From Chlorobiaceae bacterium (GTDB lineage: Bacteria; Bacteroidota; Chlorobiia; Chlorobiales; Chlorobiaceae), in the NCBI GenBank assembly GCA_013334925.1, contig JAAXWP010000001.1:1-64000 (forward strand): a DNA stretch of 64,000 nt. Direction: 5' to 3'. Below are positions 1,579-37,781 of the stretch, one piece after another. Under the pieces are notes generated by a model. It saw only the letters and a program-made list of their open reading frames with translations. It searched no databases and had not been told where the DNA came from. Numbering within the stretch: position 1 is the stretch's first letter; every line of letters begins with the position of its first letter. Made by a program: the position numbers and the translations under genes.

Positions 1579-1791
1579 GGTGCATTCGGTGCTTCGGGAA
1601 GGAGCTTGTTCCGGAGATCCCGGTATCCCGTGTTCCACAGGGCGTAATTCAGATCACTCTGCTAACCGAAAAAATAGCCAATTCACGAAAATTTTCACGC
1701 ACTCCTCGTATATTTGCTGTTCAACCTTTCAAGAACAGGGGAGTGAGTGTGGCAGTACGCGCATCTTTCGTAACAACCGCATGCATCCGGA

Positions 1792-2586
1792 ATGACCATC
1801 GATGGTGTTGACCGCCGGAGTGACCGGCAACTGACAGGAGTGATGATCCTTCACGGCTTCACGGCGAATCTCGAAAGCGTACGTACGCTGTTCGAGCCTG
1901 TTGCGAAGACCGGTCTCAAGCTGATCACTCCATTGCTCCGGGGTCACGGAGAACAATCCCCCGAGGATCTTCGGGGAGTGACCTGGCAGGACTGGTTCAG
2001 CGATGCTGAATCCGCTCTTATGGATGCCGCAGGAAACCATGGCAAGGTGATCGTGATCGGACACAGCATGGGCGCCCTTCTGACCCTGCAGCTTGCCGCA
2101 CGTCATCCCGAGCTGGTCGACTCGATCGTTCTGGCCACGCCGGCGCTCCGTCTCGCATCGCTGCTCGCTCCGGACCGCCCGCTTAATTTTCTCGCTCCGC
2201 TGCTCAGCATGCTGATCGACCGGTGGGAGTTCGAACCCTGTTTTGCAGACCCTGAAAACGCTATCATCCCCAGGCAATACTCATGGGCACCTACCAGGAC
2301 TATTCTGTCGATGTTCGACCTCGTGCATTCGACGCGGTCGATCCTGTCCCGCGTCAGCACTCCGGTACTGATCATTCATGGCCGGAACGAACGTATCGTT
2401 CTTCCTGAAAGCGCGGACATCGTGCTGCGGGAGATTTCGACACCACAGTCAGAGAAATCGGTATTCTGGTTTGACAAAACCGATCACCAGATTTTCTGTG
2501 ACTGTGAACGTGATGCTGCCGTGAGTGCGGTCATGGACTACGTCTCGAGACGTATTGACGTGTCCACGCTCTCCATTCCGGCATAG
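1792..2586 (+). CDS. Alpha/beta hydrolase (carboxylesterase / monoacylglycerol lipase-like)
   Basis: ILHGFTANLESVRTL, nucleophile elbow GHSMG, C-terminal FDKTDHQIFCDCER. Confidence 0.85.
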   Translation: MTIDGVDRRSDRQLTGVMILHGFTANLESVRTLFEPVAKTGLKLITPLLRGHGEQSPEDLRGVTWQDWFSDAESALMDAAGNHGKVIVIGHSMGALLTLQLAARHPELVDSIVLATPALRLASLLAPDRPLNFLAPLLSMLIDRWEFEPCFADPENAIIPRQYSWAPTRTILSMFDLVHSTRSILSRVSTPVLIIHGRNERIVLPESADIVLREISTPQSEKSVFWFDKTDHQIFCDCERDAAVSAVMDYVSRRIDVSTLSIPA

Positions 2587-2649
2587 ATCCTGTTCGATTT
2601 TCTCACGATCAACAGTTGCCTTTTTTTTTCAACCATAGACCTCCATACT

Positions 2650-3279
2650 ATGAACAGACCTGCCCGGCTTCTGCCAATGCTCCTTTTTGCCCTGACGCTT
2701 TGTCTTCCATCAACAACACTCGCTCGCGAGTCATCAGCTGGTGACGATGCCCCTGCATCTTCAGAATCGTCCCGGCGGGGTGTCCATCTCGATGAGGTCG
2801 GTATCGGTTCCGGTTACGCATGGGGCCATCTGAAGCACACTGACGCTTCTTTTTCGGCGATTCCGGCGTTTGTCCGGGTGGGTTTCGACATGAACACCCT
2901 GTTCGGTATGCGTGAAAGCGGATCGACCCTGCAGTTTGCACTCGAGCCGTTCGTCAATACCGTTACCAAGCCTGACAGCGGTGTCGAGGCAGGTCTGGAT
3001 TTCTTTATCCGCTATCTCCATCCACTCTCCCCATCGGTCAAACTGGTCTCCGAGATAGGGTCGGGCCCTATGTATCTGAGTATCGATACCGAAGAGCAGG
3101 GTGACGCGGGTTTCAATTTTCTGAACCAGTTCGGTCTGGGTGCCCAGGTCGCTGTTGGCGAAAAGAGTGCTCTGACCCTGGGGTACCGTTTCCGCCATCT
3201 TTCCAATGCCGGTACCAGCCAGCCGAACAGTGGCATAAACTCCAATGCGTTCGTGATCAGTTACTCACTGCTCTATTGA
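2650..3279 (+). CDS. pagL: PagL-like lipid A 3-O-deacylase (acyloxyacyl hydrolase family)
   Basis: N-terminal signal peptide; C-terminal LGYRFRHLSNAGTSQPNSGINSNAFVISYSLLY with the HxSN motif of the PagL family. Confidence 0.8.
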   Translation: MNRPARLLPMLLFALTLCLPSTTLARESSAGDDAPASSESSRRGVHLDEVGIGSGYAWGHLKHTDASFSAIPAFVRVGFDMNTLFGMRESGSTLQFALEPFVNTVTKPDSGVEAGLDFFIRYLHPLSPSVKLVSEIGSGPMYLSIDTEEQGDAGFNFLNQFGLGAQVAVGEKSALTLGYRFRHLSNAGTSQPNSGINSNAFVISYSLLY

Positions 3280-33154: not shown

Positions 33155-34355
33155 ACTCCGTGCACTCCAGGACCCGGAAGTCCTATCGCTGATTGCCGGG
33201 CACGTCCATGATGATCCTGCTGCATTTGCCATGCGGTTCCATGGGCGTAAAGAGCTGCCGGTCAGGGCCATGGCCGAGCAGATCGCCTGCCGGCGGAAAG
33301 CGAGCGCCAAACTTCCTTCGCTTTCACGACATCCGCTTCTCTATACCCAACTCGCACTCGAGCAGGCTTCGGGTGAACGGGCTGCCCGGTGGAAGTCGGG
33401 GCTCATGCAGGGGCGGAGCCTCGTCGATCTGACGGGTGGGCTCGGGATCGATTCGATCTTTTTCTCTTCAAGGTTCGATCGTGTCGTGTATTGCGAGCGC
33501 GATGAAACTCTGGCCAGGATAGCCGAATACAACCGTCAGATTCTCGGGATCACCAACGTCGAAACGCGGACAGGCGACAGCGTCGAACTGCTCGGAAGCT
33601 TTTCCGACGATACCTTCGACTGGCTTTACGTCGATCCGGCACGACGTGAGGAGGGGCGGCGGTCGGTCGGTCTGGAAGCGACAAGTCCCGATGTGGTGGC
33701 CTTGCATGACCAGATGCTTCGCAAGGCCCGCAGGGTCTGCATTAAGGCTTCTCCAGCACTCGAGATCAGCGGGCTCCGGGAAAAACTGCCGGGTCTTGTC
33801 GAAGTGATTGTGGTGTCGGTCGATCGAGAGTGCAAGGAGATTCTGCTGCTGCTCGAACGTGGCGTCACCGGGGAACATCCGGTTACGGTCAGGGCCGTTT
33901 GCCTCGATGACCGGGAGTTCGAGGTGGTTTCATCAACGGGAGCGCCGGGTGACCGGGTTGTCGCGCTACATGCAGGTCAGTGGCTGTACGAACCGGATGC
34001 GGCCATCATCAAGGCTCGCCTTGCCGCGGAACTGGCTACCAGACTTGGCCTGGAGTTCCTGAACCATACGGTCGATTACCTTACCTCAGATCGATTCATC
34101 GGGAAGTTTCCCGGCCGGACATTCCACATTGTCGAATCGCTGCCATTCAAACCGAAAAACTTTCGAAAGGATCTCGCCAGGAGGGGGGTGACCGGCGCAT
34201 CTATCCAGCGGCGTGATTTCCCGCTTTCTCCCGAGCAGCTGAGAAAGCAGTACCGGCTGGGGGAGAGCAGCGAGGTATTCCTGTTTTTCACCAGAGATGC
34301 CCGCGGGGAACTTGTCTATCTCATCTGCCGGAAGCCGGGCCGTGCTGCTCAATAG
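33141..34355 (+). CDS. Class I SAM-dependent methyltransferase (THUMP-like/RNA methyltransferase-type fold)
   Basis: GRSLVDLTGGLGIDSIFFSSRFDRVVYCERDE and DWLYVDPARREEGRRSVGLE; overlaps the upstream ligase by 14 bp. Confidence 0.75.
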   Translation: MTLDELRALQDPEVLSLIAGHVHDDPAAFAMRFHGRKELPVRAMAEQIACRRKASAKLPSLSRHPLLYTQLALEQASGERAARWKSGLMQGRSLVDLTGGLGIDSIFFSSRFDRVVYCERDETLARIAEYNRQILGITNVETRTGDSVELLGSFSDDTFDWLYVDPARREEGRRSVGLEATSPDVVALHDQMLRKARRVCIKASPALEISGLREKLPGLVEVIVVSVDRECKEILLLLERGVTGEHPVTVRAVCLDDREFEVVSSTGAPGDRVVALHAGQWLYEPDAAIIKARLAAELATRLGLEFLNHTVDYLTSDRFIGKFPGRTFHIVESLPFKPKNFRKDLARRGVTGASIQRRDFPLSPEQLRKQYRLGESSEVFLFFTRDARGELVYLICRKPGRAAQ

Positions 34356-34960
34356 ACATTGATCAATCCATCTTCAAGCCTGGTTATATAAGGCGTGGTC
34401 GTTCCGGGGATGTCGAGAGCAGCCTGGACTTCAAATCTGTACGTGCCTGACTGCAGTGCTTTTCCGACAAGACAGGCCTGAACGCATTCATCCTCCATGA
34501 CGTTCGCGTCTATTTCTCCGATGATCATTCGGCTTCCACCGGCAAGCTGTTTGGCGAAAACCGACAGTCGCCAAGGTAAGGGGGGGGCATTCCGGTCCTT
34601 TGGTCGGGGAAGAGTAATCATCATACAAAGCTTGAATGGTCTGTCACATGGTATGGCAATGCTCGGGCGGGTATATTCAAGTGGAGTGACCTTTAAATCC
34701 ACAAGCACAGCATCGCCTTCCATGAACTCTATGGGTTCAACAGCACTCTTGTCATCACTTGTCGTTTTTTGTCTAAATGCTACAATATCGTTCTCGAGCT
34801 CGACGATTCTGTCGAGTGCTTGCGCCAGCTCGTTCTTATAGCTCGAAAGTTCTGTTCTCTGGAGATCGATGGTTTTTTGTAATGACTCGAGATCGGAGTT
34901 TTTCTGCTCTTTTTTTTGCCGGGCAGACCCGGAGTCCTCTTTTGAATCGGCTGACGTCAT
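34349..34960 (-). CDS. Uncharacterised protein: N-terminal coiled coil plus C-terminal beta-rich domain
   Basis: LESLQKTIDLQRTELSSYKNELAQALDRIVELENDI coiled coil; SGTYRFEVQAALDIPGTTTPYITRLEDGLINVY resembles the end of the 142-aa neighbour. Confidence 0.65.
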   Translation of the reverse strand: MTSADSKEDSGSARQKKEQKNSDLESLQKTIDLQRTELSSYKNELAQALDRIVELENDIVAFRQKTTSDDKSAVEPIEFMEGDAVLVDLKVTPLEYTRPSIAIPCDRPFKLCMMITLPRPKDRNAPPLPWRLSVFAKQLAGGSRMIIGEIDANVMEDECVQACLVGKALQSGTYRFEVQAALDIPGTTTPYITRLEDGLINVY

Positions 34961-35036
34961 GACAGTTCATTTCAAAGGTTGCACAAAGATGATAGTGGTC
35001 TGCAAATGAATTGGAGGCAGCTCGTCAGCAGGGTAA

Positions 35037-35061
35037 CCCCGGTGGTATTCAGCCACCGGGG
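35037..35061. terminator. GC-rich hairpin between the 142-aa and 203-aa genes (coordinates approximate)
   Basis: CCCCGGTGG-TATTCAG-CCACCGGGG perfect 9-bp stem. Confidence 0.5.
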
Positions 35062-35080
35062 AGCCCAGAATCCGATACGG

Positions 35081-35509
35081 TCAGTTTTCTGCAGTATAGA
35101 ACTGGATAAGCCCTGCATCTCCGAAGCAGACAACAGGACCTGGGTTGCCTTTGGGGCCAGTGAACGTGATGGTAGTGACAAGGCGGTAAACACCATCCTC
35201 GACTATTCCGGCAGGGAACTCGATGATTTCCTTGTACGAAACATTCGAGCCCTGAATGAATGCAACATCTTTCTGATTGGGAAGGTCTTTTTCACCTGGC
35301 CCCATTTTTTCGAGGTAGACATTCAGGTTCCATGTACCGCAAAGTATCCAGCCAAGGGGACCTGTCTGAGTCCATTCGAATATGACGCCCCATTTCTGGT
35401 CATGTTCAATAATCGTGCTTGCGCCGTATTCGGGAGATTCGAATACGGTACCGGTGCCGCTAATTTTAAAAAGTGGTACCAGATCTTCGAAAACGAGCGG
35501 AAAACTCAT
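35081..35509 (-). CDS. Uncharacterised 142-aa beta-rich protein
   Basis: ATG at 35509 preceded by AAAGGAGG 5 nt upstream; preceded by a sigma54-like promoter. Confidence 0.75.
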   Translation of the reverse strand: MSFPLVFEDLVPLFKISGTGTVFESPEYGASTIIEHDQKWGVIFEWTQTGPLGWILCGTWNLNVYLEKMGPGEKDLPNQKDVAFIQGSNVSYKEIIEFPAGIVEDGVYRLVTTITFTGPKGNPGPVVCFGDAGLIQFYTAEN

Positions 35510-35578
35510 AACGTCCTCCTTTGAGTTTGGATTGATAGTCGCCTGTGAGGTACGGATCATTGCTCACGATCATAAAGG

Positions 35579-35594
35579 TTCAACAAGCGTGCCA
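35579..35594 (-). promoter_or_regulatory. Candidate sigma54 (-24/-12) promoter for the 142-aa gene
   Basis: Minus strand TGGCACG-CTTG-TTGAA against consensus TGGCACG-N4-TTGCA; correct GG to G spacing; about 70 nt 5' of the start codon. Confidence 0.65.
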
Positions 35595-35766
35595 GACGAT
35601 CGGATTGATCGAGTGCTTTCTGCAACTCATATTTTTATTGATGATTAGCGACAGTTTGCGGAGACTGTCTCTGTTGGTGGGTGGGCCTGATGCTGGTATG
35701 GTTACCAAAGAGTGCTGGTGTTTCGACCAAGGTCTTCAACCTGGAGACCGGTTATTAGACCAAGGT

Positions 35767-37410
35767 TCAATGGGGCTTGAACTCACGGGGATCGATGCCG
35801 TATCGGGTCATCTTGGTGTGGAAGTTCTTGATGTCAATTCCGGATGAGTTGGCCGCAGCGGTGATATTGCCATGCGAAGTGCGGAGCCGTTCGACGATGA
35901 ACTGTCTTTCGAAGTTCTCGATAGCCAGCTGTTTCGCTTCGCGAAACGTTTGCTCCTTGGCCTCAGGCGTTCCTGCTGCCTGCAGGGAGGCGAGCTGCTT
36001 TGACAGATGGAACGGTTCGACGGTTCCGGTATCGCACATGATGACTGCCCGGTGCATGATGTTTTCCAGCTCCCGGATATTTCCCGGGAACCGGTAGCCG
36101 TTGAGCAGTGCCGCGGCCTCGCGGGAAACACGCACTTCATGTTTGTGGTATTGTTCTCCGAATTTCCGGACAAACTCATCGGCAAGCACGAGAATGTCAG
36201 CTCTTCTCTCCCGCAAGGGGGGAAGTTCGATCTCAATGATGTTCAGCCGGTAGTACAGGTCCTGACGAAATGCTCCGGTTTCGATTCGTTGGTTCAGATC
36301 GACGTTGGTCGCAGCCAGAACCCTGACATCACAGTATCGGATTTCGGTGCTGCCAACCTTGCAGAACTCTCCGTTCTGGAGCACTCTGAGAAGTTTGGCC
36401 TGCAGCGCTGGCACCATGTCGCCGATTTCGTCGAGGAAGAGGGTTCCGTTTTCTGCACATTCGATCAGCCCTTTTTTGTCTTTGACCGCGCCCGTGAAGG
36501 CGCCTTTTGCATAACCAAACAGTTCTGATTCGAGCAGAGATTCCGGGATTGCAGCACAGTTGATAGGTATGAAGGGCTGTTCACATCTCGGACTTGCTGC
36601 ATGAATGGCTCGCGCGGTCAGCTCTTTTCCGGTTCCGCTCTCTCCGAGAATCAGTACCGGAACCCGGGTTCCCGCCGCTTTTGACATGAGTAACGTTACC
36701 TGCGCCATGGCGTGATGACGACTGTTGGCGAAAAGCTCGAGATCGGGGTTACGCATTATTTTGTTCTGCGCTTCGCGACCTCCCCCGTTAAGTGGGGAGA
36801 CGGTTTTTTTTCCCTCATGTTCCGGATGCGCTATGGCGTCGACCGGCAGACTCCGGCTTGCAGAATGCCTCGATTTGACCAGCTCACTGTCGATGCTGTT
36901 GAGCAGTTCGATGAGATGTCCGGTATCAAGGTCTCTGGTTCTTGTGCGGACCTGCCCGATGAAGGTCTCCTTTTCGTGGATATCGAAAAACTGCGGATCA
37001 TCGAAATGAAGGGACAATCCGCAGGCAGGGCATTTTTGCAACTCCAAGTGCCTGGGTTTGCCGCAGAAGTTGCATGACGAAGATCGGGTGAGTCGGGGTT
37101 TTACATAATCCCAGATTGCAGACTTGATTTGTCTGGTGAGGAACAGAAATCGGAGGCCGGTGCCATCGGGACCGTTTCGTACGATTTCACCGACAAGGTC
37201 AAGTATGGTATTGCCGGAAAGCCGAAGTTGAACATAGAGTGTACTGTTCTCCTGCAGTACTGGCTTATGGCGAGGACTGAGCAGGTCGAACAGCACACCT
37301 CCCGGGCTCAGATTTCTTATGACTGCCAATTCCTCGATGACAACGCCACCTGATACGAAAAAAATTTTTGCCGGGAGTTGCGTTGTGATTCTCGGCTCGA
37401 GACGGGACAT
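35767..37410 (-). CDS. Sigma54-dependent transcriptional activator with N-terminal PilZ domain and zinc ribbon, AAA+ core and Fis-type HTH
   Basis: RLEPR (RxxxR) and NLSPGG (D/NxSxxG) PilZ motifs; CNFCG...CPACG; Walker A GESGTGKE; GAFTGA; C-terminal NITAAANSSGIDIKNFHTKMTRYGI. Confidence 0.88.
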   Translation of the reverse strand: MSRLEPRITTQLPAKIFFVSGGVVIEELAVIRNLSPGGVLFDLLSPRHKPVLQENSTLYVQLRLSGNTILDLVGEIVRNGPDGTGLRFLFLTRQIKSAIWDYVKPRLTRSSSCNFCGKPRHLELQKCPACGLSLHFDDPQFFDIHEKETFIGQVRTRTRDLDTGHLIELLNSIDSELVKSRHSASRSLPVDAIAHPEHEGKKTVSPLNGGGREAQNKIMRNPDLELFANSRHHAMAQVTLLMSKAAGTRVPVLILGESGTGKELTARAIHAASPRCEQPFIPINCAAIPESLLESELFGYAKGAFTGAVKDKKGLIECAENGTLFLDEIGDMVPALQAKLLRVLQNGEFCKVGSTEIRYCDVRVLAATNVDLNQRIETGAFRQDLYYRLNIIEIELPPLRERRADILVLADEFVRKFGEQYHKHEVRVSREAAALLNGYRFPGNIRELENIMHRAVIMCDTGTVEPFHLSKQLASLQAAGTPEAKEQTFREAKQLAIENFERQFIVERLRTSHGNITAAANSSGIDIKNFHTKMTRYGIDPREFKPH

Positions 37411-37781
37411 GATCCACGTTTCAGTAGAGTTTTGACCAGGTGTCGGTGGTTATCAGTCGATCGTAATGGTTTTCCTGCGGCAAGTTCAGATACCTGGAAC
37501 GGAAAATGGAATACCGGTAATGGGTACAACAACCGGATGAGACTCCGGTTCTGGTACTGATGTACTGAGGTACTGAACTCGACAGGGGGTGGGATCTGCT
37601 GCTGTCCGCTTTCCCGGGGATGCATTGGTCCAGGATTATGCGGTGTTTTGTGCGTTGTTTTTGCTACTGCGGCTGTAATAGGATGCGTACCCTCTGAGCA
37701 AAGCGCTGCTTGGCTTTCGGGTTGGGAAAAAGGATTTGTTGCGTAATTGAAAAGTACTAAAAATAGGGGCTCATCGTCAAG

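Follow-up and report, generated by a model that had tools for sequence, protein, structure and literature searches.

The nearest tested parallel to the locus analyzed here is BerB of Burkholderia cenocepacia, an enhancer-binding protein (EBP) which depends on RpoN and c-di-GMP and is encoded near its target berA (PMC5552954). As with BerB and berA, our locus combines an EBP carrying the GAFTGA motif, encoded near its putative target, with a predicted RpoN promoter, while dependence on c-di-GMP is in our case a proposal. The EBP described here carries a PilZ domain and a Cys4 ribbon, whereas no N-terminal sensor domain is present in BerB (PMC5552954). The targets of BerB are, moreover, unrelated to the 142-aa and 203-aa proteins considered below, and binding of c-di-GMP is here only inferred. 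The locus also resembles type Ib EBPs (PMC3162934), which are built from an N-terminal sensor, an AAA+ domain with GAFTGA, and a C-terminal Fis-type helix-turn-helix (HTH) domain and which use sites 100 to 200 bp upstream of a -24/-12 promoter adjacent to the EBP gene. Unlike that class, it features a PilZ-ribbon sensor, for which 394 further genomes of the phylum gave no match at the sensitivity used, and a putative enhancer made of a phased triple repeat. Compared with the classical sigma54 consensus TGGCACN5-7TTGCT (PMC12316311), the -24 element, the spacing, and the TTG are exact, and the -12 element has A instead of C. Circuits of this kind are well known, and what sets this one apart is its sensor architecture, the self-contained nature of the cassette, and the preference of the lineage at -12.

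According to our analysis of the window, a 64-kb stretch of DNA from a green sulfur bacterium, the site at 35594-35579 is likely to be a working sigma54 promoter from which the adjacent PilZ-type EBP, acting on phased repeats, drives the 142-aa gene and probably the 203-aa gene. The features on which this reading is built are the following.

34356-37781, no strand assigned: lineage-specific low-GC cassette, between convergent methyltransferase and Ppx/GppA genes
35767-37410, minus strand: sigma54 enhancer-binding protein of 547 aa (Pfam and motif check)
35748-35764, minus strand: putative enhancer (UAS) copy 1, CTTGGTCTAATAACCGG, centered at about -188, directly after the activator stop codon
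35715-35731, minus strand: putative enhancer (UAS) copy 2, CTTGGTCGAAACACCAG, centered at about -155
35693-35709, minus strand: putative enhancer (UAS) copy 3, TTTGGTAACCATACCAG, centered at about -133
35579-35594, minus strand: predicted sigma54 (-24/-12) promoter, TGGCACG-CTTG-TTGAA (classical scan, genome pattern, and family PWM)
About 35567-35570, minus strand: predicted transcription start, from the sigma54 promoter match
35081-35509, minus strand: 142-aa orphan protein, predicted beta-rich, the proposed direct target (ribosome-binding site and codon statistics)
35032-35061, minus strand: strong hairpin CCCCGGTGG-N7-CCACCGGGG between the target genes, without a U run
34349-34960, minus strand: 203-aa orphan protein with an N-terminal coiled coil and a beta-rich C-terminal part

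The activator consists, in this order, of a PilZ domain (residues 3 to 103; 30.4 bits against a Pfam cut-off of 22.5), a CxxC-CxxC ribbon, a sigma54-interaction AAA+ domain (Pfam, E 2.5e-68), and a C-terminal Fis-type HTH (HTH_8, 26 bits against a Pfam cut-off of 22). The motif check found GAFTGA intact in the AAA+ domain, as well as both c-di-GMP motifs of PilZ, RxxxR (RLEPR, residues 3 to 7) and NxSxxG (NLSPGG, residues 33 to 38). Since these motifs are intact, the protein should be able to contact sigma54 and may bind c-di-GMP. Judging from the motifs, c-di-GMP is probably its ligand, and this is the weakest step of the mechanism proposed below; no diguanylate cyclase motif was seen within the 64-kb window. 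Neither genome contigs nor plasmids nor the 394 further phylum genomes contained a match to residues 1 to 230 at the sensitivity used; one of the searches for relatives of the activator addressed close full-length matches only. An identity as RtcR, suggested by PADLOC matches, was rejected since these covered the AAA+ and HTH domains alone. No sigma54 site upstream of the activator, as autoregulation would involve, is among the top matches in the window.

Between the stop codon of the activator and the promoter lie three direct copies of YTTGGT-N6-ACCRG, missed by the earlier note, each of which forms a GGT-N6-ACC dyad. With centers reckoned from a start near 35568, copies 1 and 2 are 33 bp apart (three helical turns) and copies 2 and 3 are 22 bp apart (two turns). 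Genome-wide, TTGGT-N6-ACC is not in excess (71 occurrences versus 99 for the reversed control), and the three copies are its sole cluster in the genome. Because the motif was read off the same region, the shuffle tests ranged over all motifs: when the 257-bp region was shuffled, a 5+3 dyad of whatever sequence appeared threefold in 0 of 1,000 versions and a 3+3 dyad in 4 of 300. Tandem EBP sites have such an appearance. The repeats, putative upstream activator sites by their sequence pattern of three phased dyads, look like the enhancer of the adjacent activator. A further dyad, AGAGACAGT-N8-ACTGTCGCT at 35647-35672, was set aside as an enhancer candidate because dyads of this size are frequent by chance.

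An alternative, to which we give a low probability, is that the sigma54 promoter is real and responds mainly to a different one of the roughly 10 EBPs of the genome, with the PilZ-type EBP chiefly controlling other genes and something else binding the repeats. EBPs are able to act in trans, which lends this alternative some ground, as do the at least 10 AAA+ activator matches in the genome and the extra dyad at 35647-35672. Against it, the phased repeats cluster solely beside the gene of the PilZ-type EBP, and activator, repeats, promoter, and targets share one cassette that is missing from relatives.

Turning to the promoter, the minus strand reads TGGCACGCTTGTTGAA at 35594-35579, directly preceded by C, with the -24 and -12 elements at their fixed spacing. 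Sequence, strand, and coordinates are thus as previously claimed, and so is the setting: the site follows the stop codon of the same-strand sigma54 activator gene by about 172 bp and lies 69 nt (formerly given as about 70) from the ATG of the 142-aa gene at 35509, which is indeed preceded by the ribosome-binding site AAAGGAGG. When the window was scanned with the classical consensus, allowing up to two mismatches, three matches were obtained, and only this one had a single mismatch. An independent position weight matrix (PWM), trained solely on the promoters of 30 hsp20 orthologues in the Chlorobiaceae-type family, gives the site 20.1 bits, with the runner-up in the window at 11.0; in 40 dinucleotide-shuffled windows the best scores have a mean of 13.9 and do not exceed 19.2, so that none of the 40 reaches 20.1. 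Across the genome, in which rpoN was found, TGGCACGN4TTGNW matches 11 times versus once for the reversed control. None of the 11 matches falls inside a long same-strand ORF, and the majority closely precede a start codon or a known sRNA. To the question raised in the earlier note, whether this would be the top hit of the genome, the answer is that it is one of about 11 excellent sites.

The hexamer TATGAT at 35574-35569, which resembles a -10 element and overlaps the predicted sigma54 start, is one base off TATAAT, and the 142-aa gene could accordingly be transcribed mainly from a primary-sigma promoter using it as -10, the sigma54 match being incidental. We deem this improbable, even more so than control by another EBP: no sigma70-type pair passes the scan here on the minus strand (the phylum consensus may differ from the one scanned), and the sigma54 match beats all shuffled windows and adjoins both the activator gene and the phased repeats.

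Under the sigma54 reading, the base at -12 called for particular attention, the C to A change having been regarded as a mismatch. The A is present, in place of the classical C; it is no defect, since A is the most frequent base there in the family. Among 114 TGGCACGN4TTGNW sites in 23 family genomes, a sample that requires an exact -24 element and includes background (the reversed control yields 43 sites in the same genomes), -12 is A in 52, T in 29, C in 28, and G in 5. A check free of the -24 condition is provided by the hsp20 orthologues, where a sigma54 site occurs 71 to 92 bp before the ATG in 30 of 30 genomes, the source genome included: here -12 is A in 14, T in 9, and C in 7, that is, A or T in 23 of the 30 orthologous promoters. 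Being in the minority in both sets (28/114 and 7/30), C at -12 does not define sigma54 sites in this lineage. As a separate observation, the occurrence of the hsp20 site in all 30 family genomes (L116-L145) points to a conserved sigma54 branch of the heat-shock or envelope-stress response.

Of the two putative target genes, the 142-aa frame is preferred over an antisense ORF by codon statistics, which fit the 203-aa frame weakly. The structure model of the 142-aa protein (pLDDT 45) predicts beta structure and is unfit for a fold search. In the model of the 203-aa protein the N-terminal coiled coil is confident and the C-terminal part is beta-rich; an Ig-like fold for the sheet region was discarded, the matches being generic with low TM-scores. 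Neither protein could be assigned to a family, as no match to Pfam, NCBIfam, PHROGs, PADLOC, or PDB sequences rose above the noise. No relatives were found for the 142-aa protein in 61 whole genomes, genome contigs, plasmids, and viral contigs, nor for the 203-aa protein in 41 whole genomes, viral contigs, and phages. The two proteins are possibly distantly related to each other: their local alignment scores 54, the mean for shuffled sequences being 29, and a score this high came up in 1 of 3,000 shuffles (7 of 3,000 under stricter gap costs); BLASTP and single-sequence profile comparison returned no match between them. We infer that the 203-aa gene is probably cotranscribed with the 142-aa gene, and the hairpin between them is a possible 3' stabilizer or attenuator.

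The activator, the 142-aa gene, and the 203-aa gene make up the cassette. The flanking Ppx/GppA and methyltransferase genes have 3' ends that abut or slightly overlap in about 20 congeners and two sister-genus genomes; here 3.4 kb of clearly lower GC separates them. The cassette genes were found nowhere else in the collections searched, sampled relatives included, and no repeats marking a mobile element were found at the cassette ends. This lineage probably acquired or assembled the cassette, and because the unit has no relatives, promoter and repeats lie beyond a conservation check. That it is decaying foreign DNA, whose promoter looks right yet is silent in this host, would agree with the lack of relatives in any searched collection, the GC below that of the surroundings, and the weak codon fit of the 203-aa gene, but is very unlikely given that the activator motifs, the three repeats, the promoter, and the ribosome-binding site are all intact and that the -12 element is of a type common in the family.

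Elsewhere in the genome, a second locus on contig C74 (L024) presents, in order, a response-regulator EBP (1790-3151), a perfect palindrome (TTCGACCA-AC-TGGTCGAA), a sigma54 site whose -12 base is again A (TGGCACGCAAATTGAA), and a secreted-protein gene. Since the order of EBP, dyad, sigma54 site, and target is repeated there, this layout is used at least twice in the genome. Most other EBP loci have no adjacent top sigma54 site, and adjacency is therefore not a rule in this genome. In the surrounding region (C74:111500-123500), a histidine kinase precedes the response-regulator EBP, more than one secreted-protein gene follows the sigma54 site, and a second sigma54 site occurs 4.4 kb further on, before the gene of a 456-aa membrane protein. 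Strong sigma54 sites at C63:8241 (L016) and C99:109904 (L022) precede genes for similar secreted proteins (MFKNPLLRTVALGAALIAA... and MFKSPHLRPIALAAAMLAA...), which would seem to belong to a paralogous family controlled by sigma54.

Other sites accompany a small RNA and a conserved protein. On contig C22, a Chlorobi-1 sRNA (Rfam RF01696, 70.8 bits; L033:4042-4144), followed 3' by a terminator-like hairpin, begins 21 nt past a perfect sigma54 site, TGGCACGCATATTGCA, and a second copy (L033:4637-4702) follows TGGCAAGCTTCTTGCC, which matches at 9 of 10 positions, again with a 21-nt gap. Both arrangements suggest transcription of Chlorobi-1 RNA by sigma54; other copies, including two in the relative G005 (L109), have no sigma54 site directly upstream. 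A conserved 310-aa protein (MTDFKTIYGELKGVEFRTLYSNGKTDGC...) has TGGCACGGTTATTGAT 47 nt upstream of its gene in the congeners G001 and G015 (L111, L112) and TGGCACGTTTGTTGTT 49 nt upstream in G005 (L110).

The prediction of the earlier note that the activator controls its neighbor is supported by the presence of rpoN, the intact GAFTGA and HTH, the site that outscores shuffled windows, the phased repeats, and the second locus. In the mechanism that we propose, the PilZ-type EBP would bind as dimers at the three helically phased TTGGT-N6-ACC sites, about 133 to 188 bp upstream. Engagement of the N-terminal PilZ-ribbon sensor, most likely by c-di-GMP on PilZ, would lead to assembly of the AAA+ ring, which would open the sigma54-RNA polymerase complex via DNA looping. 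Synthesis of the 142-aa protein, and probably of the 203-aa protein too, would follow. More tentatively, and with somewhat less than an even chance in our estimation, the whole may represent a horizontally acquired, self-contained switch from c-di-GMP to sigma54, comprising an EBP of new architecture, its own enhancer, and two possibly related beta-sandwich targets, in a lineage whose sigma54 has ceased to require C at -12.

The circuit is compact, with sensor, enhancer, promoter, and two targets, and a single reporter together with a single purified protein would suffice to test every step. For both orphan proteins it offers a first regulatory clue. For the family as a whole, a sigma54 prediction requiring TTGC at -12 would lose most of the sites.
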